The position numbers and the translations under genes were made by a program. From IMG/VR virus record IMGVR_UViG_3300020186_000013, positions 62,001-126,000 of that record: a DNA stretch of 64,000 bases; one strand, given 5' to 3'. The first letter of the stretch is position 1. Each line of letters starts with the position of its first letter. Positions 6,543 through 50,476 of this stretch are shown here, one piece after another. The stretch comes from a virus. The notes beneath the pieces were generated by a model. That model worked only from the letters and a program-made list of their open reading frames with translations, was not told the DNA's origin and made no database searches.

Positions 6543-7291
6543 TGCGGGCCTCCAAGTTGAGAAGCAGCATCGCTTGCGGCCTCTGCCTTCTGGGCGATAC
6601 TGCCGACACGTTCTTCCAGCTCCTTCGTAGTCCCCTCACGCAGGGGGAGTGCCTTCAGTTGCTGTACCAGTTCCTGCGTGCCCTGGCGGATGACGGCGTC
6701 GACGTCGTCCGATTTGTCTTGCTGGTTCTGGTAGATCATTGAGAACATTTCCGGGTCGTCACTAAAGTTGAAGCGGACCTGGTTGCTCAGGTCGGCCCCG
6801 ATGGCGATCCGGAGAATGTCCGGAGGGGTAACGTACCCCTCTTCCTTCAGAAGGTGCGAGATGTAGTGCCGGATGTCGCCGCAGAACGGTTCATCCTCGT
6901 CTGGCGGCGACAGTAACAGGGCCTCGGTCAGAGCCCACGCGGTCTCAGCCGAGTCGGGGTGCGAGACCTCGTCCGGTTGGAACTCCTCGCCCGACAGGAC
7001 GGTGGCGAGGACCAAGAAGCGAGACAAGTCCTTAAAGAACAGGTCCGTCGTCACGATCGTGATCGCCGCCATCAGTTTGTCGAAGGTCAGCTTGATTGGC
7101 TCGACGCCGGTGTCCCGCCGGATCTCGTGCATGATGGTTTCGGGTGCCCAGACGAACACATTGGGCTGCTTCGTCTCAGGGTCGAACCCGAAGTGGTCGA
7201 TGGCCCACACCAGCACGGTGGTAGCGTACGTGCCCTCGCCACGCAGCATGTCGCGGACGGCCTTGGTCGGGCCGTGCCCGAAGTCAGTCAC
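6539..7291 (-). CDS. hypothetical protein (250 aa)
   Basis: A GTG at 7291 that overlaps the upstream stop (GTGACTGA) is preferred over an ATG at 7330, because the extra residues look like a shadow of the neighbouring gene. The protein is mainly helical (MLRGEGTYATTVLVWAIDHF; FLVLATVLSGEEFQPDEV) with a charged helical C-terminus (TTKELEERVGSIAQKAEA). No motif or family is recognised. It lies in a run of tightly coupled genes with the acidic-tail protein. Confidence 0.55.
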   Translation of the reverse strand: MTDFGHGPTKAVRDMLRGEGTYATTVLVWAIDHFGFDPETKQPNVFVWAPETIMHEIRRDTGVEPIKLTFDKLMAAITIVTTDLFFKDLSRFLVLATVLSGEEFQPDEVSHPDSAETAWALTEALLLSPPDEDEPFCGDIRHYISHLLKEEGYVTPPDILRIAIGADLSNQVRFNFSDDPEMFSMIYQNQQDKSDDVDAVIRQGTQELVQQLKALPLREGTTKELEERVGSIAQKAEAASDAASQLGGPQ

Positions 7292-8160: not shown

Positions 8161-8199
8161 AAAGAAAAGGCATGGGTACACGGCTGAAGTGTACCTCAT
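8161..8199 (-). terminator. terminator downstream of the frameshift gene
   Basis: GGTACAC / GTGTACC (8175-8181 with 8189-8195), flanked by CATG on both sides, forms a hairpin followed on the minus strand by CCTTTTCTTT. It fits an intrinsic terminator, and its position argues that the next gene starts at 8140. Confidence 0.65.
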
Positions 8200-8208
8200 G
8201 CCGACCCC

Positions 8209-8285
8209 GGTGGCCAGGCTAACGGGCTGCACATGAATCTCCCTTAAGCGGGAGAACTGCATGTGCAGGCCGCAGCCTGGTCACC
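8209..8285 (-). other. long compound hairpin (three nested stems)
   Basis: Three nested inverted repeats: outer GGTGGCCAGGCT / AGCCTGGTCACC (one mismatch), middle CTGCACATG / CATGTGCAG, inner TCTCCC / GGGAGA. Together they fold ~77 nt into one extended structure that begins at the stop codon of the frameshift product and precedes a terminator. Function is unknown; an RNA-stability or protein-binding structure is possible. Confidence 0.7.
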
Positions 8286-8843
8286 GTATGGCCGTCCGAA
8301 GAGCGAACCAGGCACGCCGCCCGGTCGCGAGTTGTTGCAACTGCCGCCAGTTGGCAGCCTCACGTCGTTCCTCCAGTTCCTGAGCGGCGGCTGTCACCTC
8401 GTCGTCGCTCAGGCCGGGCAGTTTGGGACCAACGCCCTCACCGCCTCCTTCGCCGCCAACTCCGACTCCGTCATGTTCAAACCCGTCTGACGGTAGAGTG
8501 TTGCCAGACTCGCCTCCAACGCCGTCGTCTTCCTCCGTAGAGCCGGCAGAAGGACGATCGTCATCGGGCTCTTCTGTCCGAGCTGGGTGTTCAGCTCGGT
8601 CAACCTTTCGGCGACTTCGCTTAATGCTGCTTCTGTCACGCTTGCTTGTACCATCTCGAACTCTGACAGGATCGACGTCCGTACCGTCGCCAGCAGACTC
8701 CGCAGACGCCCGGCCATCTCCTCCCGTGTCCTCGTCATCACGAGGAGCGGGTCGTCGCTTTCGTCCCTGGTCACGACGGGGACCAAGGCATCGGTCGAGC
8801 TGGGCTCGAACGACTCCGAGGTCGCTTCCTTCTTCTTCGCCAT
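8281..8843 (-). CDS. hypothetical protein with predicted -1 frameshift product (144 aa and ~187 aa)
   Basis: The zero frame (8409-8843, 144 residues, starts MAKKKEATSESF) is helical with long amphipathic segments (EEMAGRLRSLLATVRTSILS) and ends three codons past a CCCAAAC heptamer. A -1 shift there reads 46 further residues (LPGLSDDEVTAAAQELEERR...) to a stop at 8281. The extension has normal helical composition but no start codon of its own. A 7-nt spacer and an 8-bp stem follow the heptamer. Two products sharing an N-terminus resemble tail-assembly chaperone pairs such as lambda G and GT, but here the gene lies far from the tape measure gene, so the role is open. Confidence 0.65.
8379..8427 (-). 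promoter_or_regulatory. programmed -1 ribosomal frameshift signal
   Basis: Slippery heptamer C CCA AAC (X XXY YYZ type) at 8421-8427 in the zero frame, a 7-nt spacer, then a stem of CCTGAGCG with CGCTCAGG (8406-8413 and 8379-8386). Purine-rich stretches resembling ribosome-binding sites (AAGGAGG, GAGGG) lie upstream of the heptamer and could stimulate slippage as in dnaX. All elements are seen in the sequence; efficiency is unknown. Confidence 0.7.
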
Positions 8844-8912
8844 TCATGACTCCTCCGAGTAGGGACGAGGACCGAGTGGTCCTCGTCGGGTATGTGGAAA
8901 TGGAAACTGTGA

Positions 8913-9518
8913 TCACTCGTCGTCGGCATCATCATCCAGATGACGGGCATACTCGACTTCCTCGGTCGCCCATCTCTCTTCCTCTTCCTTGTGGTAGAGT
9001 CGCGACGCGACGTTGTCGCCGAGTAGCTTATCCAAACTCAACCACGTCACCCAGAACACCATTCCGAGCGACCCGGCTACCGGGTACTCGACGGTGACCA
9101 CGCCCAACAAGAACAGCACACACGCGAGTACGGTGCTCTTATAAACTCGGCGTCGGTTGGCCTTGCTCTTGAACTCGACCGACAAAGCCGCCAAGTACGG
9201 CACCTCCAACACCAGCACGATGCCAGTTACAGCTGCCAAGCCGAACTGCCACGGGAACGCATACCCGGTGATCACCAGACACGTCACCACGAACACTGCG
9301 GTGGCGACGTACTGCCAGTACGTCGTCTTTACCTGCGGGGCCAGCGGGTCGATCTTCAGACCGAAGGCTGACGACACCGCGTTGTAGAGCATGGTCGCCG
9401 TCGTTACGGCCATGTACCACAACCCTCCGAAGATCGAGCCGATGAGGCTGGTCGGCTTCGCCTCGTCGTCCTTGACTTCGGTCTTGGTCTTCTTCTTGGA
9501 CGTTGTTGCCGTTGCCAT
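8913..9518 (-). CDS. multi-pass membrane protein (201 aa)
   Basis: A Lys-rich N-terminus is followed by about four hydrophobic segments (near 35-55, 75-95, 97-115 and 130-160, e.g. YVATAVFVVTCLVITGYAF) and a charged, acidic C-terminal tail (HLDDDADDE). It would sit in the host inner membrane with a large cytoplasmic tail. It is preceded by a promoter-like element and a terminator, so it probably starts its own transcript. No family recognised; holin or superinfection roles are possible but unsupported. Confidence 0.65.
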   Translation of the reverse strand: MATATTSKKKTKTEVKDDEAKPTSLIGSIFGGLWYMAVTTATMLYNAVSSAFGLKIDPLAPQVKTTYWQYVATAVFVVTCLVITGYAFPWQFGLAAVTGIVLVLEVPYLAALSVEFKSKANRRRVYKSTVLACVLFLLGVVTVEYPVAGSLGMVFWVTWLSLDKLLGDNVASRLYHKEEEERWATEEVEYARHLDDDADDE

Positions 9519-9548
9519 GTGAGACTCCTGAAGAGGGTAAACGAGAAG

Positions 9549-9600
9549 AGGTAAGATACCTCTCAGATAATATGACGCAGATCAGTGTTTAATTTAGTAG
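9549..9600 (-). promoter_or_regulatory. promoter-like element, copy 1
   Basis: About 50 bp shared with 56437-56487. Read on the minus strand both have CTAAAT, a 19-nt spacer, TATTAY and then CTGAGAG and ATCTTAC. Here it lies between the terminator at 9645-9672 and the start of the membrane-protein gene at 9518, where a promoter is expected. A 7-bp hairpin (AGAGGTA / TACCTCT) overlaps its downstream end. Confidence 0.55.
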
Positions 9601-9644
9601 ACGTGCTCGGGACGTGTCCGGCGTGTCCGGCCATCGAACTTAAC

Positions 9645-9672
9645 GAAAAGACCTCCGGGATCACCGGAGGTC
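9645..9672 (-). terminator. rho-independent terminator
   Basis: Perfect 9-bp stem GACCTCCGG / CCGGAGGTC with a 5-nt loop, followed by TTTTC on the minus strand. It ends the transcript of the CxxC protein gene at 9693-10016. Confidence 0.75.
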
Positions 9673-9679
9673 GTGTGGC

Positions 9680-9696
9680 TAGATTCCAGTTTCTAG
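9680..9696. repeat. dispersed palindrome, copy 2
   Basis: Reads CTAGAAACTGGAATCTA on the minus strand and supplies the TAG stop codon of the gene at 9693-10016. It belongs to the eight-copy family with consensus TTAGAAACTGGCTTCTAA. Confidence 0.5.
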
Positions 9697-36067: not shown

Positions 36068-36559
36068 TTATCGCAACGTCACAGGGATGGGGGCGATAAA
36101 CGCCCGCTTGGTGCCGGCCTCGCTGACCAGAGCCAGCCGGAGGATAACATAATCGGGTGCCGTCAGCACGATCGACAGCACCGTCACGCCGTTGAACCGC
36201 TCGTCGGGCGGGTCAGTCGCCAGCTGGAGTGCCCGCAGTTGCCGCTTGACGTCAACCATCGAGAACGAGAACGATTGGAGCACGTCGGTGGACGTCCGCC
36301 ACCGCCCCTGGCGGGCGTCTTGCATGAACGGGCAACCGGCGTCGGGGTTGTACGGCTGTGACCCCTTGTCCGTGAGGAGCAGCATGAGGAACCTCTGGGC
36401 CAGCTTGAAGATGCCCGTGAGGACCTCGCCGCCCTCGCCCGGCTGGGCGATGGCCTGGTCGACCTGCTTGTCCGTACCGTAGCCGGCACCGTGAAAGCAG
36501 CTGATGTCGATCGTGCGTCCGACGTAGTCGACGACCGTGGTCTTGGGGGCAATGGTCAT
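36068..36559 (-). CDS. baseplate wedge protein, gp25/W-like
   Basis: 163 residues from ATG 36559, which overlaps the upstream stop (ATGA). Size and location immediately before a baseplate J gene fit the gp25/gpW wedge family, as does a segment with FKLAQRFLMLLLTDKG followed by paired strands (TDVLQSFSFSMVDVKRQL). Such proteins nucleate sheath assembly at the baseplate. A lysozyme active site is not seen. Confidence 0.65.
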   Translation of the reverse strand: MTIAPKTTVVDYVGRTIDISCFHGAGYGTDKQVDQAIAQPGEGGEVLTGIFKLAQRFLMLLLTDKGSQPYNPDAGCPFMQDARQGRWRTSTDVLQSFSFSMVDVKRQLRALQLATDPPDERFNGVTVLSIVLTAPDYVILRLALVSEAGTKRAFIAPIPVTLR

Positions 36560-37017
36560 TGCGGTCCTTTCGCCCTCTTGATAGAGCGGCTGACAAACTC
36601 GATCCCGCACTCTTTGAACACCCCAAGGCTAGACCCCTGGCCATGTCGCGTCCCCGCGAGGTGGGCGAACCGCCGCGATCGGTTCATGGTCATGCGTGCC
36701 CGGAACGACCGCTCCATCACCGCGAGGTAATCGACCATGGTGCAGGCGTTGATGATGTCCTGCACCACACCCGGCGTGTTGGGGCTCTCGATCGCCCGGA
36801 CCGCATCATTGTTCGACTTCGACCGGTCGAACGGGGTCGCCATACCGGTGTGGTCGAACGGGTTGCCGTTCCACCCCGTCGGCCGCATCCACCGGATCTG
36901 CCCGCCGGTGCGGAGCTGCTGCTCCTGCTCCTGGCACAGCTGCTGGACCCGCTCCAGCTGCCGCTGGAACACGGGGTCCATGTCGACCTTGGACACGGGC
37001 TTGGCGACGTCGGGCAT
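36556..37017 (-). CDS. hypothetical protein in baseplate cluster (153 aa)
   Basis: Opens MPDVAKPVSKVDMDPVFQRQ with a Gln-rich helix, then a central Trp/Asn/Pro region and an Arg-rich helical C-terminus (MERSFRARMTMNRSRRFAHL). Between the sigma-like factor and the gp25-like gene. No family recognised. Confidence 0.6.
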   Translation of the reverse strand: MPDVAKPVSKVDMDPVFQRQLERVQQLCQEQEQQLRTGGQIRWMRPTGWNGNPFDHTGMATPFDRSKSNNDAVRAIESPNTPGVVQDIINACTMVDYLAVMERSFRARMTMNRSRRFAHLAGTRHGQGSSLGVFKECGIEFVSRSIKRAKGPQ

Positions 37018-37024
37018 GGTGTCC

Positions 37025-37753
37025 TCAGAACGGCGACAGCTCGTCGCCCTTGTTCAGTTGCTCTTGGATGTACTTCTTCCGCTGGCTGACGAGGCCGGGG
37101 CTGCGGCGGATCTTGTCGGCGATCTGGTGGTTGGCCAAGACCTTCTTGCCGTTGTACCCGAGGGTGTGCTCGAAGATCAGCTTGTCGGTGGGCGTCAGGT
37201 CGTCGTACACGATCTGGTGCCACATGGTTGATTTGGGTGAGCCGGTGCCGCCGAACACCATCTGCTCGGGGTTCGACGCCTCCAGGGTCCCCTCGGCCAC
37301 AGCCGGGTTGTACGTCCGCACGTGCTTCATCCGCTTGTGGGAGAAGCCGGTGCGATCGGCCAGCTCGGCGTCCGACGGGTCGCGGCCCAGTTCGTGCGAC
37401 AGCTCTTGGTGGGCGTTCTCCATGTTGTACCGGTCGAGGGACACCCGCTCGGGGACCTTCATGACCGACCCTTGCTGGCGGCTGACTCGCTTCAACCCTT
37501 GGAGCTGGTTGAACAGGTGCGTCTGCAACCGGGACCGCTTTGGGTCGTACGTGCCGAGTGAGTCGAGGGTCATCCGCCGAGCCCGGCTGGTAATTAGCGG
37601 GTTGGGCTCGCCGACGTGGGTACGAATCGCCTTGTCGATGGTTGGTTGGAGGTGCGTGAGGATGGCGGCATTGGCCTCGGGGGTCTTGGCCCCCTTCCAC
37701 GTCCCGAAGGCTTCCGTGTGTTCGGGTTCCAACATGCTGGTGCTAGGTAACAT
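37025..37753 (-). CDS. sigma-70-family transcription factor
   Basis: 242 residues from ATG 37753 (GGAGGCAGCG upstream). A region-2-like helix set (NPLITSRARRMTLDSLGTYD) is followed by a region-3-like helix-turn-helix (SHELGRDPSDAELADRTGFS) and a region-4-like part (LTPTDKLIFEHTLGYNGKKV, then a helix ending KIRRSPGLVSQRKKYIQEQL). Phage sigma factors redirect host RNA polymerase, often to late genes. It overlaps the hub gene by 11 nt, so it is probably made together with tail proteins. Its promoter set is unknown. Confidence 0.75.
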   Translation of the reverse strand: MLPSTSMLEPEHTEAFGTWKGAKTPEANAAILTHLQPTIDKAIRTHVGEPNPLITSRARRMTLDSLGTYDPKRSRLQTHLFNQLQGLKRVSRQQGSVMKVPERVSLDRYNMENAHQELSHELGRDPSDAELADRTGFSHKRMKHVRTYNPAVAEGTLEASNPEQMVFGGTGSPKSTMWHQIVYDDLTPTDKLIFEHTLGYNGKKVLANHQIADKIRRSPGLVSQRKKYIQEQLNKGDELSPF

Positions 37754-39494
37754 CGCTGCCTCCCAAATCGCCGCCGAAATTCCCGTCACTACGATTCAAG
37801 TTCTCGTGACCGGGGACCAGAGGCATGCCGGCCTGCACTCTGCTGCCGAATAGCGGATGCACAGGGACGCTGGTCCGCCCGTCCGTACTGCTATTCTCGG
37901 TGTTGGTCCGGACGTGTGACAAGCTGAATGTCGTTTGGGCCTGGGCAGACTCGGCGTTGATCGCGATCGTGACGCGGGCGACTGAGCCGACGAGGTCCAT
38001 GGCCAGGCTGTCCTCGCCGGCCAGGAACTTCTCCTCGGACGCCTTGACGATGATGATTGATCCGGGGCCGATGTCGAACCGGAGTTTGCCGCCGACCAGC
38101 CCGGTGCGGCCCCGGAGCATATTAGCGACGTACACCGATTGGGCGTACCGGTTGAACAGATCGAGCACGTCCTTAGCGAGCTTGTCGCCCTTGGGGTCGG
38201 GACCGGCAACGCCCTTTGCGTTGGGCGTGGTGGCGGTCTTGGTGACCTTGTCGTTGCCGATGCCGGACGTGCCCGATACGTTGTCGGTCGCGTCCTTGAT
38301 GCCGGCCAGCCACGCGGGCGGCGACACATACTGGACAACGCCGTCACTTGCGTCGACAGAGGTGGCTGAGAAACAACCACCGACGATCGGAATGGACCCG
38401 TACCGCCCGGCCTGGACGAGGCCGTAGTCACCGGAGTAGTTCGAGATGACGCCCACGGCCCGCAGCGGGCGGTCGAGTTCAGCTTGCATCTGGAAGCTGT
38501 CGTACTCGTCCGGAGTGATGGCCTTCCACGGCTCGCCGTTGTATGCCGGGGTATCGGCCGCGACGCACGCGAACTCGACCGACGGGTAGATCGCCATGTT
38601 GAACTGGGGGAAGAAGGTCCCCAACATCTTGTCCCAAAAATTGGTGTTCGCGTACGACTCAACAGCTCCCTGGGACAGTGCCCGTGACACGGACTCGGTT
38701 GCCATCGGCACGCTCGCGACGTCCAACTTGAGAGGCGTGCCGTACACGTACGCCTTATCGCAGTTCGGAGCGTTCGTGCCCTTGGCACCAGGACCCTCAA
38801 TCTTTTTGAGTGCGTTCGAGGCCCGGTCATTCTTGACAGCAGCTTCCGTCCCGGCTCCCGAGCACTTGGCATCCCCGACACCAGGTTCGGCTTTGACGTC
38901 GGCGAGCTGACAGAACAGTCCCTTCATCGCCCCCCACAGGTCGGCGGTGACCGTATCGACAGTCGTCTTGTACCATACCATCGACGCAATGTAATTGCCC
39001 TTGCCGAGGTTCGCTCCGGTGAGGTTGCCGTTGGCCATGACAGCCCGTGAGGTCATGGCCCACGGGTTAGCGGGGTGACTGTTCTTGGCTAGGCAGCTGG
39101 AGTTGGCCAGGTCGATCAGCCAGTGCCGAAGGTTGGCGATCACCTGGATCTTGCCGCTAATCTTGGTGTACGCGAGGCCGACCATGTACCCTTCAAAGAT
39201 CACGAACGGATCTTCGGGCCACTGGATGCCTTTGGTGTCCCAATCGCCCTTGAGTTGCAGGGTGACCCTCGCCGGCTGCATCTGCTTGACCTTCGAGAAC
39301 ACACTGTGGATAACGGCGTCTTCTAGTGTCCGGGCGTTGCGACCCACGGCCAAAAGGATCTGGGCACTCGGGATCTCATTCACCGCGAAGCTACTCGTGA
39401 ACTGGCTCACGTCGAACTTGAGACCGTTGACTTCGAGTGTCAGCGTCGTGCCCTCGCCCAGGTGCGTCAGTGCCCACTGCTTAGTTTGTCCCAC
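37743..39494 (-). CDS. baseplate hub-like protein (gp27/gpD-type)
   Basis: 583 residues. The N-terminal 130 residues have the beta-rich form of hub proteins (ALTHLGEGTTLTLEVNGLKF). The central part contains a Gly/Ala/Asn insertion with scattered Cys. Position between tape measure and wedge genes supports a central hub that carries the spike. Start ATG 39494; the end overlaps the sigma-factor gene. Confidence 0.6.
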   Translation of the reverse strand: MGQTKQWALTHLGEGTTLTLEVNGLKFDVSQFTSSFAVNEIPSAQILLAVGRNARTLEDAVIHSVFSKVKQMQPARVTLQLKGDWDTKGIQWPEDPFVIFEGYMVGLAYTKISGKIQVIANLRHWLIDLANSSCLAKNSHPANPWAMTSRAVMANGNLTGANLGKGNYIASMVWYKTTVDTVTADLWGAMKGLFCQLADVKAEPGVGDAKCSGAGTEAAVKNDRASNALKKIEGPGAKGTNAPNCDKAYVYGTPLKLDVASVPMATESVSRALSQGAVESYANTNFWDKMLGTFFPQFNMAIYPSVEFACVAADTPAYNGEPWKAITPDEYDSFQMQAELDRPLRAVGVISNYSGDYGLVQAGRYGSIPIVGGCFSATSVDASDGVVQYVSPPAWLAGIKDATDNVSGTSGIGNDKVTKTATTPNAKGVAGPDPKGDKLAKDVLDLFNRYAQSVYVANMLRGRTGLVGGKLRFDIGPGSIIIVKASEEKFLAGEDSLAMDLVGSVARVTIAINAESAQAQTTFSLSHVRTNTENSSTDGRTSVPVHPLFGSRVQAGMPLVPGHENLNRSDGNFGGDLGGSDVT

Positions 39495-40284
39495 GTTCAG
39501 CTCTCCACGCTTGGTCCATGCGGTACGCCACGGCCATCAGCAACGCACTGAGCCGCAGTGGCAGCTCTTTCTGATTCTTCCACAGATTGCGGAAGGTCAG
39601 GTAAGGTTGCTCGGCCGTGATGCCGAACAGGGCGTTCAGGTTGGGCTCGCCGATGTTAGTAAGACTCGCCAGCAGGTCCGCTAGGTCCGCCTGGGGGCGG
39701 TTCCGGACGACGACGTCCCAGGCCATTCCGGGGCTCGTTGTCGTCAGGCGGACCGAGTATCCGGACTGGCCGAGTGGGACCGCGTCCGACAGGCCGTCCG
39801 TCAGGGCGAAAGGTAGAAACTGGCTTCTAGATGTCGGTGTGATCTCCTGCACCTGTACGGACGTCGGGCCGGCAACGCGGACCTCGACGGTCGTTTCGAT
39901 CTGCCCAGTGGTATCCGGAGCGGTCGGTACGCCCTGAACGTAGAGTGTAGTCGGTACACCTTGGAGCTGCATCACAACCGGCATAAATGCGGCGGCGGGC
40001 ACGAGGGCGGCGTCGGTCAAGGAGTACGTCACGCGGGGGTCGAGTTGGAACACGTAGTCGACCAGTGGCGTGGCGTGGATCAGGCGAACGAACTGCCGGC
40101 ACCGGTAGTTCACCATGTGGCGATCGGGCTTGGAGCCGAATAAGAGGGACCGAACCACGGTCAAGTACCCAGGGACGGCCTTCAGGGGCACGAAGTCCGT
40201 GGGCGTAGCTTCCTCGGCGAGGTACGACGCCGAGCCGTTGAAAGATGCCTGGTTGGCCAGCATCGTGCGTGCGTGGTTGTACAC
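39481..40284 (-). CDS. tail or baseplate protein (267 aa)
   Basis: GTG start at 40284 with GGAGACTTGAA upstream; a longer reading would cross the upstream gene. Beta-rich central part (QGVPTTLYVQGVPTAPDTTG) and helical C-terminus. A copy of the dispersed palindrome lies inside the coding sequence, encoding SRSQFL. Function unclear; context gives a baseplate role. Confidence 0.55.
   Translation of the reverse strand: MYNHARTMLANQASFNGSASYLAEEATPTDFVPLKAVPGYLTVVRSLLFGSKPDRHMVNYRCRQFVRLIHATPLVDYVFQLDPRVTYSLTDAALVPAAAFMPVVMQLQGVPTTLYVQGVPTAPDTTGQIETTVEVRVAGPTSVQVQEITPTSRSQFLPFALTDGLSDAVPLGQSGYSVRLTTTSPGMAWDVVVRNRPQADLADLLASLTNIGEPNLNALFGITAEQPYLTFRNLWKNQKELPLRLSALLMAVAYRMDQAWRAERGTN
39814..39830. 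repeat. dispersed palindrome, copy 5 (inside a gene)
   Basis: TAGAAACTGGCTTCTAG within the coding sequence of the 267-residue baseplate protein. Its presence in a frame without disruption argues for either tolerated insertion or selection for the DNA motif. Confidence 0.5.
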
Positions 40285-40285
40285 T

Positions 40286-40765
40286 TCAAGTCTCCGGGAG
40301 GGTCTGCATGCTGAGACCCCACTGAACCATGCCCGACTCGGGCTCGACCGTGTCGAAGGTCGAGCTGGTGACAAAACCCTCGATCGTGTTATTCGGATTC
40401 GTGCCGATGGTAATACGGACCGGGGCACCGGTCTTGGAGACGCGGTTTCGCCTGTACCAATCCATCATCAGGGCCATGCCGTGGTCCTGGTTGGTGTCGC
40501 ACGGGGCCGCGAAGGATAAGCCCGCCAGACTCAGACTGCCGATCCGGTCGCCGAATACGTACACGTAGATCGAGGCCCCTAGGGTGTGCAGGAACTGCAC
40601 GTTCGCCTGTTGGCTGAGTGTCACCCGCGTGATGATCGACTGCTGTGACTCGAAGTCGATCTCCTCCCGCACGTCCTGGAACCCGACGAAGCCGACGCGA
40701 GCCTGGGCGGTCGGATCGTCGACACGGACGACAGTACCGCGATTTTTCTCAAAGATGACGGGCAC
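40286..40765 (-). CDS. tail-tip or baseplate protein (159 aa)
   Basis: GTG start with AAGGAGCCCCC upstream. Beta-rich with a central DTNQDHGMALMMDWYRRNRV and ending EPESGMVQWGLSMQTLPE, features I associate with small tail-end proteins that bridge tube and hub in myoviruses. Located between tape measure and hub genes. Assignment is tentative. Confidence 0.5.
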   Translation of the reverse strand: MPVIFEKNRGTVVRVDDPTAQARVGFVGFQDVREEIDFESQQSIITRVTLSQQANVQFLHTLGASIYVYVFGDRIGSLSLAGLSFAAPCDTNQDHGMALMMDWYRRNRVSKTGAPVRITIGTNPNNTIEGFVTSSTFDTVEPESGMVQWGLSMQTLPET

Positions 40766-40774
40766 GGGGGCTCC

Positions 40775-43700
40775 TTACGGCTTTGTGACCGGGTTGAGGG
40801 GGTTGCCGCTACTCGCACCGTCGACTTCGGCCTGGCTGCCCTTAATCGTAAGCGTGCCGGTGAACTTGACATTGTCCCACTTCGACCCACCCTTGTCGGT
40901 GTCAGCTTGCGGCAGTCGCTGTCCACCCTGTTCCATGATCGTGTACGCCTTATTAAGCTGTTCAAGGGAGACGTTGCCGTCCTTGTTCCGCTCCAGCAGA
41001 CCCTGCTGCTGCTGGACCTCCAGGGCACCCTTGACCTTCTCCCATTGATGGTCGTCTCCGATGTGCAGTTTGCTCCGGAGATTGTTGAGGTTCTCGGTCC
41101 TCTTCTTCTCGTCGGAGACGTTGACCGTCGCGTCGTTGAATGCCTTGCCGAGTTCGCCCACGTTGGCAAACGACTTCTGGCTGCCCTGGACCGCACCCTT
41201 GAGTTCATTCTCCGAGTTGACGATGCTCTCCGTACCCGCCGCCGACTGGGAACCGATCCTCCCGGCGAGTGCGGACCACTTCTGCCCGTCTCGCTCGGCT
41301 TCGTCGATGCCGAAGACGTTGCCGACCCGCGTCAGCCGCATGCTGCCGCTCTCCCTGGTCCGGTCGTAATACTTTTCCGCCGCCGCCTTTTGCACCTCGA
41401 TGACGCCAATCGCACCGGGCAGTGCCTCGGCCGACACGCCGATCTTCGTGGCGATTTTCTCCATCTGGGCCTTCTGTTCCGTCGTGGCCTTGTCGCCCGC
41501 TGCCATGATGGTGCGAACGGACTGTTCTTCCTCGCCCGTCATCTTGCGGGCGATGCCGACGTTGTCCGCCTGCTTCTTGAGGAGCACCCGGCGGGCGAAG
41601 TCGAGCGGGTTAAGGCCCTCGCCGTTACCCTTCTCCAGTCGCTTCATCTCCTCGTCGGTTAGGCCCATCAGGGTGTGGGCCTCCTTCATGTTGCCGACTT
41701 GCTCCTGGCGGGCGACGACACGCTTCTTGTAGTCCTCGTCTGTCTCACCGGCCTTCTTGGCTTCAATGTCCTTCTTGGCCTGTTCCTCGTCGCCCAACCA
41801 GAACTGACGACCGAGTTTGCCGGTAGTATCGTGCAACATCCCGACGATGCCGCCCTGTTCGGTTTGGAGTTCCTTGATCTCGTTCATGACCTTCTCGTAC
41901 GTCTCCTTGTTCCCGAACGTCTGGATGTCGCCGTGCAGGAGCTTGGCGATGTCGCCGCCTGCGTACTTGAGGGCCAGCTCATGTTTGCGGGTCGTGATGT
42001 CGTTAAGCCGCGTGTGTGCCGCGATACCACGGGTGCCGAACCGTTGGGCCGATGGGGCGGTAACGGCTTTGTCGGCAATCGTCTGGTAGGCGTCCTCGGA
42101 CCGCATGATGCTGCTGCGGGCCATCTTCCCGTCGTCGGTACGCCAGAACTCGCCGAACCGATCCGATCGGTCCTGGAAGCGTTTCTCCAACATCGTCTTC
42201 CTGGCTGTATCAATGTCCCCGTCCTTGATGCCTGGGTTCGCCTTCCTGACGTCATCGTCGGATACGTTGAAAATCACCTTCTCCTCCCGGTCGATCAGTT
42301 CGCCGAGCTTCCTGCGTTCATCGGCCGGGGTGAACGGGGTCTTGGCGGCTTCAGCTGCCTTCCGGGCCTCGTCGATCTCGTGGCTGAACCCCCACCGCTT
42401 AGCCCGTTGACGAGCTGCGGCAAGTTCCTCCGCGTCGGCAGGAGACATGCCGCCCTTGATCAGGGCGTCGACGGCTGCTCGCGGCGGACGGAACCCCGTC
42501 GCCCGGCGTTCGGCGATGATGACGGCACGGGCCTGTTCGTCCGTTGTGATTTGGCCCTTCTGCATCTCCAGTTCCATGTCTGAGTGACTGATCTGCGACA
42601 TATCGCGACCCTTGGCGTCGCGGGAGCCGGGCTTCGTCGACCACGTGGCAATCTGGTTGTTGATGATCTCGTTGCGGGCATCATCCTCCGAGAGTACCGT
42701 GCGGTCGAGGGCCTTGCGTCGTTGGATGGTGGCGTCGATGTCCTCCTTGGAGATCGCTGACTTGTCGGTCCGCATCCGCTCAATCGTCTCCCGTCGGCGG
42801 GCGATGATGGCGGCTGCCGCTTGGTCGGTGGTAACTGGCTTGTTGACCCGGTAGTCCCTTTTGACTGCGTCGATCTCGGGCCGTTCGATCTGCGAGCCAG
42901 ACGCACTGCGGATGCCGGCCGTCTCTGCGACTTCTCGGGAGATGTCGCGGGCGGCACTCAACGCCTCCTTGGTGTCCTTCGCGGAGACGCCGGTCTCGCC
43001 GAAGAACCCGAAGTCAGCTGACACCTTGGCCAGGTTCGATGCGTCGTCGGTTAGCTCCCTCATCCCGGTGTCGTGCTGCTCTTGGAGTTTGTCGCGGGCC
43101 TCACCGGGCTTCTCCTTGAGGATCTTTGCCTGCAACTCTTCGAGGGCGGCTCGCTTCTCTTGGAGCTTCTGGAGGGGGGCGACAAGGGCCTTGTTGACGT
43201 CCTCGTTCTTGACACCGCCGAAGGCCGTCGCGATCAGCTCGATCGGACTGTCGGTCGACTTGGCGTTCTGGAGGAACTGCATGGCCCGCGACAGGGCCGT
43301 CCCCTTACCCAGCGGGGAAAGGGCGTCCTGTAACTGTCCGGTGAAGTTCTGGCGTTGTCGGTTCCGATCGGCCGCTGCCATCGTCTCGGGGTTGAAAATC
43401 CGCTGGACGTTGCCGACGTTCTCCAGGCCGGCGAAGCCCGAGTTCTGGAGGGCGAGGTTGGACTGACCCTTCCACCGCTCGGCGGCAAGACCGAAGAACT
43501 GGTTACGTTCCTGATCCGGCATTGCCGCCAGGGCCTTGCCGGCGTCGGTGCCGGCCAGCTGGGTCTCCATGATCTTCTGGAAGTTCGCCTTGAACTTCTG
43601 TGGGTCGTTGAAGTCCGCCGTCGACATACTAAAGACCTGCTTCGTTGCCTCAGCGGACACCTTACCCATCGCCTCCTTGGCGGCGTCCTCGTTGATGCCC

Positions 43701-45370
43701 TTCGCCTTCAGCTTCTCGACCATCGTCTCGTGCATGCGGTCGGCGAGAAATGGCATCACCTGCTTCTCGCCCTGGAGCCCACGGACGGAGTCACCGATCT
43801 TGTACTTGTCGACTTGCTCTCGGTTGTCGAACTGCTGGGTGAGCATCTCCTGGACGTCATTCTGGGTGATGCCCCGCGACTTGCCGCTGGCGTCGACGCC
43901 GTGGGTGAGGGTGTGAATGAGGTCTTCCTCGGACAGGGCGATCGACTTGAATTTGCCGTCTGCTCCTCGGTACTCCTTTTGACCCGTCTTGATCGCCTTA
44001 ATCAGGTTGGCGGCTTCTGAGTCTTTCTTGAACCCGCCCACGGAGTCCGCGACGCGGACGGCCGCACCGAGGCGGTTCGCCATGTTGGAGCCAGACGCCG
44101 ACGTGGTCAGGTTGGCGTCGAGTTGCGTCAACTGGTCGGAGTTCATCGCCCCCCAGGCCGTGACCGCCCCCTCGCCGCGAGCCCGGTAGGCCCCGCCGAA
44201 GGCCAGAGCGTGCTGCGTGGCTGAGACACCGAACTGCGACTCGATACCCAACGCCGCTGCGTGCTGGGAGGCGTGGCCCTGGATCATCAGGGCGTTGTCG
44301 ATTGAGACGCCGGTCGACTTGGCCAGATTGTACGTCTGGCGGGCAATCATGCCGGCCTTGGCCGGGTCCATCTGGGCCAGGTTGCCGCCCGTCAGCTGTT
44401 CAAGGCCCCGCATCAGCTCGGACATGGGGGCGTTAGGCCGACCCTGGTCACCAAAGATCTCCCGCATCGCCGACACAGCCCCGGCGTAGTTCTTGATCGA
44501 CTTCGCGATCCGCCCCGTGTCGATGGACCGCATTTTCTCCGAGACCGCCGGATCGAGGGACAGCTTGTCGATGTCTTCGGCGGACAACTTCTCGACGCCG
44601 CCGGCCGGCAGGGTCATTTTCTGGCGGCTGGCAGCCTTCTGGAGTTGCTCGGCTGACATCCCCCGGACGACGTCCGACGTCTTGGTCCCCACCGACCGGG
44701 TGTCCTGGTCGACCATGCCCCGCATCTGGAGTTCCTGGAACAGCGACCCGGCCTGGCCCGCCGTGACGCCCTTCATGTCGCCGATCTTGGCCTTATCGCC
44801 ATAGAGCTTTTCGTACAGCTCGCGTGACTGCTGACCGACGGTCTCGGCCGACATGCCCATCCGGCCGGTGGCCGGGTCCATGCGGTAACGACCGCCCTCG
44901 ATCATGCGGCTGGCCATCACCGTCGCCGAGCCCCGGAGACCGCCGAGTTGGTCGAGCGTGTCCGGGGCGATCTGAGCCATAATGGGAGCGGCAAACTGGG
45001 CGGCGTCCGCCAGCGTACCGGCGGCACGCCGCTGGGACGCACCAAACTCCTGGCCGCTCATTGCGGCTACGCCCCGGAACGTCCGCATGAAACTCTGGCG
45101 ATCTACTGCCGAGGCGTCGGACATGGCCTGTCGCTGCATCGCGGTGAATTCGCGGTGCTTAAGCGTGTCCCACGCATTCTGATCGTGGCCGAGACCCATC
45201 GGGGTCATGTTCATCCCGCCCATTGCGTTCATCAACAGCGGCGACGCCGCCATCCCGACGAGCGGGTTGCTGGAAATGAACGGAGCCCCCTCAAGCCCGT
45301 ACCGGTACTGGGGGGCGTAACCTGCGGCCATGGGGGCGTACCCCATCGCCTGTCGCTGCATCGGGTCCAT
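40775..45370 (-). CDS. tape measure protein (1531 aa)
   Basis: Largest gene of the window. Low-complexity, mostly helical, rich in Ala/Met/Gln/Lys, with an N-terminal Met/Gly/Pro-rich stretch and a long charged helical middle (~850-1200). Such proteins set tail length at about 0.15 nm per residue, which would give about 230 nm. It directly follows two overlapping chaperone-like genes, the standard order. No lysozyme or peptidase motif was noted. Confidence 0.8.
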   Translation of the reverse strand: MDPMQRQAMGYAPMAAGYAPQYRYGLEGAPFISSNPLVGMAASPLLMNAMGGMNMTPMGLGHDQNAWDTLKHREFTAMQRQAMSDASAVDRQSFMRTFRGVAAMSGQEFGASQRRAAGTLADAAQFAAPIMAQIAPDTLDQLGGLRGSATVMASRMIEGGRYRMDPATGRMGMSAETVGQQSRELYEKLYGDKAKIGDMKGVTAGQAGSLFQELQMRGMVDQDTRSVGTKTSDVVRGMSAEQLQKAASRQKMTLPAGGVEKLSAEDIDKLSLDPAVSEKMRSIDTGRIAKSIKNYAGAVSAMREIFGDQGRPNAPMSELMRGLEQLTGGNLAQMDPAKAGMIARQTYNLAKSTGVSIDNALMIQGHASQHAAALGIESQFGVSATQHALAFGGAYRARGEGAVTAWGAMNSDQLTQLDANLTTSASGSNMANRLGAAVRVADSVGGFKKDSEAANLIKAIKTGQKEYRGADGKFKSIALSEEDLIHTLTHGVDASGKSRGITQNDVQEMLTQQFDNREQVDKYKIGDSVRGLQGEKQVMPFLADRMHETMVEKLKAKGINEDAAKEAMGKVSAEATKQVFSMSTADFNDPQKFKANFQKIMETQLAGTDAGKALAAMPDQERNQFFGLAAERWKGQSNLALQNSGFAGLENVGNVQRIFNPETMAAADRNRQRQNFTGQLQDALSPLGKGTALSRAMQFLQNAKSTDSPIELIATAFGGVKNEDVNKALVAPLQKLQEKRAALEELQAKILKEKPGEARDKLQEQHDTGMRELTDDASNLAKVSADFGFFGETGVSAKDTKEALSAARDISREVAETAGIRSASGSQIERPEIDAVKRDYRVNKPVTTDQAAAAIIARRRETIERMRTDKSAISKEDIDATIQRRKALDRTVLSEDDARNEIINNQIATWSTKPGSRDAKGRDMSQISHSDMELEMQKGQITTDEQARAVIIAERRATGFRPPRAAVDALIKGGMSPADAEELAAARQRAKRWGFSHEIDEARKAAEAAKTPFTPADERRKLGELIDREEKVIFNVSDDDVRKANPGIKDGDIDTARKTMLEKRFQDRSDRFGEFWRTDDGKMARSSIMRSEDAYQTIADKAVTAPSAQRFGTRGIAAHTRLNDITTRKHELALKYAGGDIAKLLHGDIQTFGNKETYEKVMNEIKELQTEQGGIVGMLHDTTGKLGRQFWLGDEEQAKKDIEAKKAGETDEDYKKRVVARQEQVGNMKEAHTLMGLTDEEMKRLEKGNGEGLNPLDFARRVLLKKQADNVGIARKMTGEEEQSVRTIMAAGDKATTEQKAQMEKIATKIGVSAEALPGAIGVIEVQKAAAEKYYDRTRESGSMRLTRVGNVFGIDEAERDGQKWSALAGRIGSQSAAGTESIVNSENELKGAVQGSQKSFANVGELGKAFNDATVNVSDEKKRTENLNNLRSKLHIGDDHQWEKVKGALEVQQQQGLLERNKDGNVSLEQLNKAYTIMEQGGQRLPQADTDKGGSKWDNVKFTGTLTIKGSQAEVDGASSGNPLNPVTKP

Positions 45371-45383
45371 AGGCGTCCTGCCT

Positions 45384-45860
45384 TTATGTCTTCTTCAACT
45401 CGCGGAATCGGCGGTTGATCCTCTCCTCGTCGGTCTCGGCCTGAGCAACCGGGACGTACCAGTCGCGGATCTCCTGGGCCAACTTCCTCTTAAACTCGGG
45501 ATCATCGGGGTCGCCGATGATCTTCTTGAACTGTTCCTTCAGCCCGGCGATCTCAGAATCCTTACCCGCCTCACGGGCGTTCCAGGGGTGCAAGAGGCCG
45601 ATGATGTTGTTGAACGTCTCCACGGCGTTCTTCGTTGACTTTTTCCAGCTCTCGTCCGTCAGGCTGGAGTTCGCAACCAAGGCGAGGTGGTAAGCGTAGG
45701 CCGCTTGCGACAACTTGAGGTCGTCCTCGCGGGACATCCCGTCGATCAGGATGTTCACCTTACGCCACCATCGTACGTCCAGCAGCCTCGCCTGGCGAAA
45801 GTCGATGACGCCCTTCGTGGCTGCCTGAATCGTCAGGACTGCTCCTCGGTCGCGTTCCAA
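45384..45860 (-). CDS. probable tail-assembly chaperone, GT-type extension
   Basis: 158 residues in the -1 frame relative to the upstream gene, overlapping it by 28 nt. The frame starts at TTG 45860 or later; no good ATG is present, though GAGGAG precedes a CTG. It contains DFRQARLLDVRWWRKVNILI and a helical remainder. In many tailed phages the second chaperone is made by -1 frameshifting just before the tape measure gene, as the layout suggests here. A T5 run (ATTTTTGG) is the candidate slip site. Confidence 0.6.
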   Translation of the reverse strand: MERDRGAVLTIQAATKGVIDFRQARLLDVRWWRKVNILIDGMSREDDLKLSQAAYAYHLALVANSSLTDESWKKSTKNAVETFNNIIGLLHPWNAREAGKDSEIAGLKEQFKKIIGDPDDPEFKRKLAQEIRDWYVPVAQAETDEERINRRFRELKKT

Positions 45861-47044
45861 AAATCCGAGTTGTCGACCATGCCCTCCAGTCGCGACACCA
45901 GGCGGTTAAACCGCTGGGCCTGGTTCGCGATAACGCGGTTGAGACTCTCGCTGCGGAGTACCTTTTCCAGCACGTACTTCTCGATGTGCTGGAGCCCCGT
46001 GTCGGACGGGTCGGCCGGGTCGGGCAGTTTCCAGTGGGCCTCGGCGTTTGGGTTCGATTCCTTCGATAGGCCATCGGGCAGGTCTTCACTGAACTGCGTC
46101 GAGCGGAACTGCTGGATCTGGAGGTACAGCCGCAGGCGGTTGACCCGTTCCCAAAAGTCCAGCTCGGTCGGCAGGAGGCCCCGGAACCGTTCCTGGTAGG
46201 CATGCTTGAAGACGACGTCCAGTTCCTGGGTCGTTAGCGTGCGGAATACGACGGACACCGCCCCACCGAACAGCGGGTACTCCTTGACGAAGCACTTCAA
46301 GCCGAGGATCGCGTGCAGGAACGACATCTTCTCGCCGTACGGCGGCGTGGGGATGTCCTCCTGGTTAAGCGGCCACTCGCAGTGCGGACAGTGCGACATT
46401 AACTTGTCCGCACCGAGATCCGTTGTCGGAGTCGGTGTAGCCGTGGGTGGCGTGGGTGGCGTGGGTGGCGGTGCCGCCGCCGGAGGAGGCACCTGCTCCA
46501 TGTCATTGACAATCATGGGCTCTTCCCGCCGCCGCTGGCCGATCGCCCGGTCGGCGTCGGCCTCCAGTTTTCGGACGCCGGACTCGATCTGGGGCGGGAG
46601 GGCGGATGAGGTCGGGGAGAACGCCGTCAGCGTCTCGGATATCTTCCGACGGATCTCGGCTTGCTGCGTGGGCGTCAGGTCCTTCTCACTGACCGTGGCG
46701 ACTTCAAGGTCCTTGAGCCGTGGGTCGGCGGACAGGGCGGTGTTCGCGATCTCCTTGGCCGAGTTGGCCTGGACCTGGCCGAGTATGTCCGCCATGTTCG
46801 ACGGAACGTCCTCGCCCTCCCGCCAGCCGACCTTCTTCAGGTCCTTCTTCTCCTCCTCGGAGAGGGAGCTGGCCTTGATCACGGTCACCGGTCGGTCGGT
46901 CGGGAGCGGCAGCGTGCCCTTGACGCCGGGGATCTGCCGACCGCCGGGCGGCACGGGCATGGTCGCCTTGGCCACCTTTGCCTTGATGTCGTCGTAGGTG
47001 ACGGGCGGCTTGCCGGCTGCGGAAAGGTCAACTTCCTTGGCCAC
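45833..47044 (-). CDS. probable tail-assembly chaperone, G-type (403 aa)
   Basis: GTG start with AAGGAGGCCCACG. A Lys/Pro-rich N-terminal region is followed by a helical segment, a Pro/Thr linker (~195-215), a Cys pair (CPHC near 225) and a C-terminal helical domain (LDVVFKHAYQERFRGLLPTE). Position right before the tape measure gene suggests gpG-like function. It is larger than lambda G, so the assignment rests on context. Confidence 0.5.
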   Translation of the reverse strand: MAKEVDLSAAGKPPVTYDDIKAKVAKATMPVPPGGRQIPGVKGTLPLPTDRPVTVIKASSLSEEEKKDLKKVGWREGEDVPSNMADILGQVQANSAKEIANTALSADPRLKDLEVATVSEKDLTPTQQAEIRRKISETLTAFSPTSSALPPQIESGVRKLEADADRAIGQRRREEPMIVNDMEQVPPPAAAPPPTPPTPPTATPTPTTDLGADKLMSHCPHCEWPLNQEDIPTPPYGEKMSFLHAILGLKCFVKEYPLFGGAVSVVFRTLTTQELDVVFKHAYQERFRGLLPTELDFWERVNRLRLYLQIQQFRSTQFSEDLPDGLSKESNPNAEAHWKLPDPADPSDTGLQHIEKYVLEKVLRSESLNRVIANQAQRFNRLVSRLEGMVDNSDFWNATEEQS

Positions 47045-47055
47045 CGTGGGCCTCC

Positions 47056-49803
47056 TTAGTTTGGTTTGACGATCTTGAAATTTTGGGCCAGTGACGCCGT
47101 CTCGTTCTCCGGCAAGGTCGGCGACTCGTACTGACTTTGGTTACTACTGCGTTCCTTGTCAACACCGCGACCCCAGTCGTACAGGCCGAGCTGGGCCAGC
47201 CGGAGGAATACGGAGGAGTCTTCCCACTTGGCCTTGCCGGGCCACGGGTACAGTTGTCGTCCCTGGTAGCTGACGGGCTTCTCCTCCCACGTGTCGCCAC
47301 CGGACCCGCCGCCCAGCCGCTGGATCTGGTGCCACCGGCTCTCCACAAACTGCAAGGTGGTCGTGTGGTACTGCTTACCCGGTTCGTCCGAGTCGCGGTA
47401 GCTGAAGCCGATCGCACTGATGGTGTCGTCGCTGCCGAGGGACTGCGTCCCGTACCACGGCACGGTGACGTCGCCCGTCATGGCCAACTGCCCGTCTTTC
47501 GTGACCTTTTGGAGGGCCTGGCAGGCGTCCTGGCATAGCTCGGTGACGGCCGTAGCCGCCTGATCGCCGCCGGGGCCGACGAGGCCCTCCTTCTTGGCGA
47601 TGTACTGCCCGCCGCTCGCGACACCCTTCACGGCGGCAATGCTGCCGTTGACGGCGAGGTTGCCGCTGCCGCACGAGCCGACGATCAGGCCCTTGGCCAA
47701 GACCATCGACCCCTCGTGTGTCACGTTGTTCTGGCCGAACCGGTGGCTCTTCACCATCGACGGTGCCGTGGTGCCGGAGATCGAACCCGAATAGTGCCAG
47801 ATGGTGAAGTCGTTCTTGACGTACGCATCGACCTTCTTGGCGTTGACGGCGACCGTGCCCAGGCCCTTGCCTGCGTCGAGGACGATGTCACCTGTTTGCT
47901 TCTTCGCACCCGATCGGATATACACGTCCTCACCGAGTAGCCCGACGACACTGGCAGACTTGAGGACGATGCCGCCCGCGTCGACGTCCTCGCCGATCTT
48001 GTCCTGGTAGTCCTGCGTCTTGCTGGTGCTCTTGGACTCCACGAGGACGGTGTTCTCGCCGAGGATCTGGAGGTTCTTGAACGCCCGCAAGCGGACGTCC
48101 TTGTTCGACGACGAGATGTCGACCGAGTCGTGGCTCTTGACGATGACCTCACCCGACATGATGAGGGCCGTGCGGCCGGGCAGGATCTGGACGGACCCAG
48201 GAGCCTCGATCCGGACATTGCCGGCCGTCATGGTAATCTGCGACCCGAATCCGTCGGCAATGGCGATGCCGCCGTCGTCGAGGAAGGCGATGAACGCCTC
48301 ACGCTGGAAGTATTCGACGTCGTTGTACCGCTTGTCGATGCGGAGGACCTTGGGCGTGGGGTCCGACATGTACGACTGGGACGACAGGACGCCGAAGTCG
48401 AGGTTGTCCATCGTGCGGCTGAAGAACTGGCTCTGACTCTCCTCGGCGACCTGGTAATCCTTCTTGTGGTAGTGGAACGGGTGGAGCCGCTTCCAGTTAA
48501 TGTTCCACGCCAGGATGTCCTGCACGCCGCCGACCCGCCGGATGGACCGGTTGGTGCCGGTCACCTTCATGTCGTTGACCTTGTGGTCCTCGCCGCTACC
48601 GAACTGGGACGAGAACTTGTAGTTGCCGGCTTCGGCGTCGTCGCCCGTCGCATCGTTGACGAGCTTCTGCTGCTTGGGCACCGGGATCAGGCACCGCTTG
48701 GCGAAGATCATGCTCTTGGCGGACTGCACCACGTACGAACCGTCGAGTCCAACGTGCTGGGCGAACACGCCCTCGTCGGCGACCGGATCACTGTACCGCT
48801 GGACGCCGGAGTCCCGTTGCAGCTTGACGACGTAGTCGAGCCCGCCTTGGCCGAGGTAGCCGCCGTAGTGCCGGACCCGGTGGATGGGCTGGACGTCCTT
48901 GCCGGTGTCGGGCAAGTCGACCTTGCCGACGGGCTTGTTGTACTGCACGTCTTCGTCACTGTACTCCTGGGTGAAGTCCGTACCGGGGGCGTATAAGCCC
49001 AGAGCCTCCCACGGATACGTCGCCACCATGTGCTGGTAGTTCGCCTCACCCTCATCGGCGTACGCCTGCTCGTCGTGGATTGCTGACGTGATCTCCAGCT
49101 GGGAGCCCGCCAGGCTGCATAGGCCGTCCCAGAAGCTCAGGGATAGGCCGCACATCTCGTTGACGCGAAGGAACGCCATGAAGCTGTCGATGTGGATGCC
49201 GACGCCCGTCTCGGTGATCTTGTTCCATTCCAGGCTCGTCGAGTCAACGGGGGACTGGCAGGAGAAGTCCTGGATGCCGCCGGACCGCTCCATGCCCTTG
49301 GCGACCTGCTTGTGAATGCGTTCCCGCTTGTACCCTGCCTGACTGCCCTGGGAGATCCAGCCGGGGCAGGCGACGCCGTCGTCCTCCAGGGCGTGAGGGA
49401 CGACGCCGAGGATGGCGGACGGCCCCGATCCCGACTCCGTCGGGCAGAAGATGATGACCGTGCTGCCGGCCGTCAGGGGTGCCCCGGAGCGGGGGCCGAG
49501 GGGAGTCTTGATGGAGTCCGACAGGTGATAGGCGGCGACCCACCCGGAGTCGCCGAGTTGGACCTTGTACCAGTTGAGGCCGGGGATCGAGTGGACGATG
49601 ACGCCGATCCGGAGGCCGCTGTGGCGTCCCGGATGGTTCAGAAGACCCGCAATGACGCGGGCGGGGTCGCGGGTGAGGCGATTGGCTTGCTGACCCAGGG
49701 CGTCGAGTTCGCTCTGGAGGTTGGTGATCCCCTGGATGCGACCGTCCGGCTGGGACACGCCCATACCGGGGTCCTGGGAACCCCGATGTGACTCGGTTGA
49801 CAT
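47056..49803 (-). CDS. baseplate spike/hub protein with beta-helix (915 aa)
   Basis: N-terminal ~150 residues fit an OB-fold-like module (LRIGVIVHSIPGLNWYKVQL; GSTVIIFCPTESGSGPSAIL), as in VgrG/gp5-type spikes. The region ~540-760 has a repeating pattern of ~12-residue strands (GNVRIEAPGSVQILPGRTAL) consistent with a triple-stranded beta-helix needle. No lysozyme motif is seen. It would be the puncturing tip of the tail. Confidence 0.65.
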   Translation of the reverse strand: MSTESHRGSQDPGMGVSQPDGRIQGITNLQSELDALGQQANRLTRDPARVIAGLLNHPGRHSGLRIGVIVHSIPGLNWYKVQLGDSGWVAAYHLSDSIKTPLGPRSGAPLTAGSTVIIFCPTESGSGPSAILGVVPHALEDDGVACPGWISQGSQAGYKRERIHKQVAKGMERSGGIQDFSCQSPVDSTSLEWNKITETGVGIHIDSFMAFLRVNEMCGLSLSFWDGLCSLAGSQLEITSAIHDEQAYADEGEANYQHMVATYPWEALGLYAPGTDFTQEYSDEDVQYNKPVGKVDLPDTGKDVQPIHRVRHYGGYLGQGGLDYVVKLQRDSGVQRYSDPVADEGVFAQHVGLDGSYVVQSAKSMIFAKRCLIPVPKQQKLVNDATGDDAEAGNYKFSSQFGSGEDHKVNDMKVTGTNRSIRRVGGVQDILAWNINWKRLHPFHYHKKDYQVAEESQSQFFSRTMDNLDFGVLSSQSYMSDPTPKVLRIDKRYNDVEYFQREAFIAFLDDGGIAIADGFGSQITMTAGNVRIEAPGSVQILPGRTALIMSGEVIVKSHDSVDISSSNKDVRLRAFKNLQILGENTVLVESKSTSKTQDYQDKIGEDVDAGGIVLKSASVVGLLGEDVYIRSGAKKQTGDIVLDAGKGLGTVAVNAKKVDAYVKNDFTIWHYSGSISGTTAPSMVKSHRFGQNNVTHEGSMVLAKGLIVGSCGSGNLAVNGSIAAVKGVASGGQYIAKKEGLVGPGGDQAATAVTELCQDACQALQKVTKDGQLAMTGDVTVPWYGTQSLGSDDTISAIGFSYRDSDEPGKQYHTTTLQFVESRWHQIQRLGGGSGGDTWEEKPVSYQGRQLYPWPGKAKWEDSSVFLRLAQLGLYDWGRGVDKERSSNQSQYESPTLPENETASLAQNFKIVKPN

Positions 49804-49843
49804 TGCCTCACCTCAAGGGTGCGTTTGTGGGCTTAAAGCCCTG

Positions 49844-49869
49844 GAGGGGGAGGGCCGTCCCTCCCCCTC
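49844..49869 (-). terminator. terminator after the tail tube gene
   Basis: An 11-bp perfect GC-rich stem (GAGGGGGAGGG / CCCTCCCCCTC) with a 4-nt loop 25 nt past the stop codon, followed by a second mini-hairpin (GGGCTTTAAGCCC). No long T-run, so it may be partial and let some read-through reach the spike gene. Confidence 0.65.
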
Positions 49870-49873
49870 AGAG

Positions 49874-49891
49874 TTAGAAACTGGCTTCTAG
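49874..49891. repeat. dispersed palindrome, copy 6
   Basis: TTAGAAACTGGCTTCTAG directly after the tail tube stop codon and just before the GC-rich terminator. Confidence 0.55.
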
Positions 49892-49893
49892 GG

Positions 49894-50370
49894 TCAGTTG
49901 CCGTAGAAGACCATACTGGCGAAGACCATCTGCGACTGCTCATTGACGATCATATCCTGAGCCGCCACCGAAATGCCGACCTGGGTCAGGCAGCACCCGT
50001 AGAGCCCGTACCCGCCGTACCCGCCGGCAGGCGGGCAGGAGAGCGGGTTGAACTCCAGCCCGATGTTGTTGTACTGGGCGTTGCAGACCTTCCCGAACTT
50101 GTTGTAGAAGGCGGAAATGGTTGTCGTCGGCCCCAGGACCCGACCGAGGCCGAGCGTGCCCTGCGTTCGACCGCCGACGTAGTAGATGTTGGTTTGGCCG
50201 TAGGTGCCGTTGCCCACTTCGTACAGGCGACTGATGTTCTGGACGTAAGTGGCGTTGACGTTCTGGACGAGGGCGTTGCTTACCACCCCGCCGAAGTTTA
50301 ACTTGGCGAGTTCGGCCGAGAATGCACCGCCGAGCTGTGCACCGTTCGCCAGGAAGATATCACCGGGCAT
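49894..50370 (-). CDS. tail tube protein (probable)
   Basis: 158 residues, the usual tube size, encoded directly after the sheath gene. It begins MPGDIFLANGAQLGGAFSAE, is beta-rich, and has a Gly/Tyr/Cys loop (GYGGYGLYGCC) near 125. Strong ribosome-binding site (ACGGAGG). Flanked by terminators on both sides, as expected for a highly expressed protein made in hundreds of copies. The tube fold itself cannot be seen from sequence alone. Confidence 0.6.
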   Translation of the reverse strand: MPGDIFLANGAQLGGAFSAELAKLNFGGVVSNALVQNVNATYVQNISRLYEVGNGTYGQTNIYYVGGRTQGTLGLGRVLGPTTTISAFYNKFGKVCNAQYNNIGLEFNPLSCPPAGGYGGYGLYGCCLTQVGISVAAQDMIVNEQSQMVFASMVFYGN

Positions 50371-50435
50371 GGAAAAAACCTCCGTGTGTGAAGCCGAGCC
50401 TTACCACAGGCTTGGCGGCTGTCCTTATAGGAAAG

Positions 50436-50463: not shown

Positions 50464-50476
50464 TTGGTGGCTGGGA

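Follow-up and report, generated by a model that had tools for sequence, protein, structure and literature searches.

A plausible -1 frameshift in an orphan accessory gene of a large phage encoding an RNA polymerase

An orphan accessory gene of a large tailed phage, read on the minus strand (8843->8281), plausibly undergoes -1 frameshifting close to its 3' end, as judged from its sequence. If such an interpretation is correct, a single start would give two proteins. The majority of ribosomes would terminate at 8411-8409 and produce a helical protein of 144 amino acids. In a minority, the tRNA-Pro and tRNA-Asn paired with CCA AAC would slip one base back to CCC AAA, with a downstream stem-loop resisting unwinding, and the slipped ribosomes would translate 46 more codons into a form of 187 amino acids, the added tail of which would be partly basic and helical. 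The combination of CCCAAAC with a simple hairpin points to a low yield, which we infer to be at the percent level and which would suit a minor extended form made in a fixed ratio. Only tentatively would we go further and propose that a large phage encoding an RNA polymerase has a second programmed -1 frameshift, outside its tail genes, which yields the major and minor forms of a helical accessory protein in a hypervariable slot by means of a heptamer (C_CCA_AAC) thought to be inefficient in bacteria. Were this true, phages would recruit recoding for their fast-evolving genes too, and gene callers would be truncating such proteins.

The stretch of DNA analysed (64,000 nucleotides, hereafter the window) covers bases 62001-126000 of a 208-kb IMG/VR virus record. 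The gene calls (226 genes, 62,127 codons per genome) come from a codon model for which the window served as training sequence. The features on which the argument is built are the following.

8409 to 8843, minus strand: zero-frame open reading frame of 144 aa, ATG start with GGAGG upstream; an orphan, codon score +17.9
8444 to 8450, minus strand: Shine-Dalgarno-like AAGGAGG, 16 nt 5' of the heptamer
8421 to 8427, minus strand: slippery heptamer C_CCA_AAC in the zero frame, the same in a second contig
8414 to 8420, minus strand: spacer TGCCCGG, 7 nt
8379 to 8413, minus strand: stem-loop of 8 bp, arms 8413-8406 and 8386-8379, -20.6 kcal/mol with the extending CCGG/CUGG pairs
8409 to 8411, minus strand: zero-frame TGA stop, three codons past the slip site and within the 5' arm of the stem
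8281 to 8421, minus strand: -1 frame extension of 46 aa plus stop (8283-8281), codon score -1.2
8214 to 8280, minus strand: strong hairpin of 67 nt (-46 kcal/mol, z -7.6) separating the accessory slot from a conserved 122-aa gene

The zero frame runs through the slip site as ...GCG TTG GTC CCA AAC TGC CCG GCC TGA, so that the heptamer, the 7-nt spacer, the 8-bp stem and the stop three codons past the slip site, all of them described in an earlier note on this DNA, are indeed present on the minus strand. The arms of the stem are CCTGAGCG (8413-8406) and CGCTCAGG (8386-8379), separated by a loop of 19 nt. The spacing of 7 nt lies within the 5-9 nt range; the fold itself is only marginally better than that of shuffled sequence (best z -1.85, for 51 nt, and weaker for longer windows, with 11 of 200 shuffles as good). 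Shine-Dalgarno-like elements that stimulate -1 frameshifting usually stand 10-14 nt from the slip site, and the 16 nt found here is longer. From 8421 the -1 frame reads LPGLSDDEVTAAAQELEERREAANWRQLQQLATGRRAWFALRTAIR (46 aa) and is open to 8281; it is also open 5' of the heptamer, up to 8916 (an ORF of 211 aa), where its upstream part is Gly-rich and scored as non-coding. The same note described the 46 residues as devoid of a start codon of their own, which needs correcting, as the near-starts GTG 8397 and TTG 8340 lie in frame inside the extension, neither of them with a convincing Shine-Dalgarno (SD) sequence. The GTG, 11 nt past the zero-frame stop and in the -1 frame, is what would allow ribosomes to re-initiate after the stop at 8409 and make the extension as a separate small protein, from this codon (about 38 codons) or from another start. 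Such re-initiation is very unlikely, since no SD stands at a usable spacing and the start would fall in the loop of the stem.

The codon usage of the region changes frame where slippage would be expected to occur. In sliding windows of the codon model, the signal stays in frame 0 down to about 8440, belongs to frame -1 between about 8430 and 8370, and fades thereafter. Over its 46 codons the extension scores far above the alternate reading frames of real genes, which average about -36 and in 0 of 2,337 windows reach as high. Taken whole, it also scores above composition-matched, stop-free DNA generated as a Markov null (-14.8, sd 7.8; p 0.038). For its first 25 codons p is 0.006, the final 21 codons scoring low (-5.9). 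Real in-frame windows average +18.5, and 46-codon windows of the candidate's own zero frame range from -2.6 to +11.0. An antisense ORF on the plus strand (8263-8490, 75 aa) scores +12.3 in the same phage codon model, and thus the coding signal at the extension is not exclusive. The idea that a plus-strand gene owns this signal, and not the -1 extension, deserves next to no credence all the same: 219 of the 226 called genes lie on the minus strand, and the antisense of real genes often scores well, 24% of the open windows in such frames matching the score of the extension.

How often would these elements meet by accident? In-frame XXXYYYZ heptamers occur 56 times in the 62,127 codons, and within 10 codons of a gene end about 2 of 226 genes are expected to have one and 6 do. 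A free -1 extension of at least 35 codons, in DNA unclaimed by another gene, follows 20 of the 226 genes, and a stop-free run of 46 codons has a probability of 36% at this composition. A perfect stem of at least 8 bp at a spacing of 5-9 nt is found at 0.44% of coding positions, and one of at least 6 bp at 4-10 nt at 5.8%. Multiplying the rates for heptamer, free extension and stem gives about 0.001 coincidences per genome with the strict stem and 0.01 with the loose one. The conjunction is unusual, yet the findings were chosen among many windows. It is therefore a possibility to be taken seriously, if short of probable, that the 144-aa protein alone is made and that heptamer, stem and open -1 stretch came together by chance where a GC-rich orphan gene ends. 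At the above rate, hundreds of genomes read will yield some such cases; heptamers near gene ends and free extensions occur elsewhere in this genome too, the stem is weak by the shuffle test, and CCCAAAC is a poor motif in bacteria (PMC4066793). Against chance stand the switch of the codon signal at the slip site, the score of the extension above composition-matched DNA, and a stop that brings the extension right up to the boundary hairpin, with no gap between them. Another gene, at G000:C1:39125-39775 (minus strand), has an in-frame AAAAAAG three codons before its stop, then a coding-like -1 frame of 109 codons; the following gene overlaps that frame, and ordinary coupling is possible there.

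The boundary hairpin starts directly after the stop of the extension (8283-8281), whilst the zero-frame stop would leave 128 nt unused. Equally strong hairpins (z -7.3 to -12.7) stand in the same place in three relatives, at about 3950-4030 in L138, 9449-9520 in L139 and about 8580-8670 in L140, and their sequences are unrelated. Structure is kept between the slot and the 122-aa gene and sequence is not, with a clear U tract absent; these hairpins are perhaps terminators or RNA-processing sites. In the window, this seems to be where a transcription unit ends, and the -1 extension fills the space up to it.

Relatives were found by means of the RNA-polymerase motif NADFDGD[AT]M, their beta' being 45-66% identical, and the syntenic regions were reached through the 122-aa downstream neighbour and a 263-aa gene; a scan with a three-member alignment (A6) of the 149-aa gene upstream brought in L192, a near relative. 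Among them, most of the order g698-g116-g149-g107-[slot]-g122-g174-g263-g217-AAA-g477 is conserved, and the slot (window 8174-9692, from g107 to g122) stands out as a hypervariable cassette from the syntenic operon around it. In the window it holds two genes, the frameshift candidate and a multi-pass membrane protein (9518->8913, 201 aa). Elsewhere it holds two other membrane proteins (L139), one (L140 and L178), none (L138), or a secreted 154-aa protein and others (L192); this secreted protein has a GPYQI motif and may be lysozyme-like. Inside the 263-aa gene of the window, ARAGORN calls a tRNA-Gly (ACC) at 7164-7248, probably falsely.

Neither the 144-aa protein nor its extension is present in any relative examined, L192 included, and scans of the viral collection, bacterial genome contigs and phage records for homologues gave no more than one near-identical contig. 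Weak tblastn matches to the gene or extension in L139, and in G026 and L186 (E 0.0018), proved in their context to be out of frame with, or antisense to, other genes, and were put down to chance. With no relative carrying the gene, the candidate rests on a single sequence. The twin contig differs by 10 substitutions in 16,560 positions, has no indels and keeps the frameshift arrangement, which makes an assembly error unlikely. Another origin for the two frames would be decay, a one-base indel near the 3' end of a longer single-frame gene having left the extension as a remnant of the old C-terminus. Decay is common in hypervariable accessory places such as this slot, and a remnant could account for the coding-like character of the extension's first half; an indel, however, does not predict that the break should coincide with a slippery heptamer and a stem 7 nt further on, and the two contigs, with their 10 differences in 16.5 kb, share the layout without an indel. 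We consider decay improbable.

As to the product itself, a single-sequence AlphaFold2 prediction for the 144-aa protein gives four helices (40-64, 71-89, 98-120 and 126-138) at a low pLDDT of 63. Foldseek returned no significant match for it, and no useful family was found in Pfam, PHROG, NCBIfam or PADLOC. A likeness to Avd, and hence to diversity-generating retroelements, was considered on a Foldseek hit of rank 16 (E 0.81) and rejected, because the genome is without a reverse transcriptase and a match of four helices lacks specificity, copper storage proteins and others matching as well. The proposal that the candidate might belong to another class of paired proteins finds no support beyond its position.

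The RNA polymerase that the phage encodes is of the multi-subunit kind, its beta and beta' having an intein-like break. In L009 (15507-19989), an intein-like coding stretch (CFTERVFLHTESSG... and ...NNVLVSNS) seems to break the polymerase genes near the beta/beta' border. Window 50477-53299 encodes a sheath-like protein, which resembles structural proteins from Salmonella phage Arash and from Vibrio phage D181 at about 26%, and the genes of 36068-54053 appear sheath-, tube-, tape-measure- and baseplate-like, PHROG matches being absent for most; this region indicates a myovirus-like, poorly described lineage. It also contains what is likely the tail-assembly chaperone pair of the phage, with a conserved -1 junction of its own. 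A 403-aa gene (47044->45833, minus strand) is followed by a 158-aa -1 ORF (45860->45384) that overlaps its last codons, and the gene that comes directly after the pair, of 1531 aa, occupies the place of a tape measure. Homologues of the 403-aa gene occur in 9 of 11 related records; in the alignment of seven of them, identity is 23-39% across the full length, and in the extension it is 22-42%. At all ten junctions read (window 45833-45860 and nine relatives) the slip site is [GA]ATTTTT. The zero frame there reads (D/N)F(W/F) from [GA]AT TTT TGG, two records having TTT TTC instead. Read in the -1 frame, the T run leads into conserved sequence, mostly F(L)..DR..(V/A)L, 5' of any convincing start, the first near-start in G008 and G009 standing nine codons downstream. 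PRFect lists a 'five-two' slip pattern for phage genes (PMC10885494), which TTTTTGG resembles in our own reading. No PHROG, Pfam, NCBIfam or solved structure identifies the family, so the label of chaperone comes from position and frameshift layout.

The candidate at 8.4 kb, the accessory product of a variable slot, is not the tail chaperone, whose place is taken by this likely pair. The earlier note was right to keep the two apart on distance: the candidate is about 37 kb from the tape-measure gene, not directly upstream of it, and has no sequence or fold likeness to a chaperone family in PHROG, Pfam, NCBIfam or Foldseek. In this phage clade the chaperone gene seems to be read with a -1 frameshift, and this junction, in an unclassified group of RNA-polymerase phages, is maybe the more useful by-product of the present work, as it is kept, with its T5-run slip site, across relatives down to 23% identity and standard family searches miss it as a chaperone.

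Frameshifting at the 8.4-kb site is favoured by elements in the right order and spacing, which are expected to coincide so rarely in one genome; by a codon signal that moves frame at about 8430, with an extension that beats alternate frames and the composition null; and by a stop abutting the hairpin, a twin contig that keeps the layout and a chaperone gene that seems to use the same device. It is weakened by the lack of any homologue beyond the twin in the collections and related records searched, by a heptamer outside the most efficient E. coli motifs, by a stem that is marginal against shuffles, by the poor last 21 codons of the extension, by the ease with which 46 codons stay open, and by the high-scoring antisense ORF. 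The layout put forward as a programmed frameshift with all the classical elements is thus real and unusual, and the signal does change frame; the word 'programmed' is what goes unproven.

Several known systems bear comparison with the candidate. The best E. coli heptamers are V_VV.A_AA.R and others, those ending in AAC being weaker (PMC4066793). C_CCA_AAC falls outside the efficient E. coli classes (PMC4066793), and its strength may differ in the phage's own host. Insertion sequences of the IS1/IS3 family use A_AAA_AAC and G_GGA_AAC at low efficiency for OrfA-OrfB (PMC4066793). The candidate heptamer ends in AAC just like these signals; unlike them, it comes with no transposase or mobile-element features and its -1 product is just 46 aa. 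From T7 gene 10, -1 slippage near the gene end likewise yields a main product and a lesser, extended one (10A/10B; PMC5009743). The candidate, too, is a phage gene that would yield two such forms, though it is an orphan and its slip site is C_CCA_AAC. The T7 product is the abundant major capsid protein, and its slip site is of the G_GU type. Programmed -1 frameshifts of tailed phages are best known in tail chaperones, with few capsid cases. Xu, Hendrix and Duda are said to have described, in 2004, the chaperone frameshift of lambda G / G-T and its conserved counterparts in tailed phages. Lambda G / G-T and these counterparts are reviewed in PMC5009743. Unlike them, the candidate lies away from the tape-measure gene, whose neighbouring place holds 47044-45384, lacks a sequence or fold match to a chaperone, and is known from one sequence and its near-twin. 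Like lambda G / G-T, it has its slip site a few codons before the stop of a small zero-frame protein and a -1 extension with no convincing start of its own, from which a minor, C-terminally extended form would be expected.
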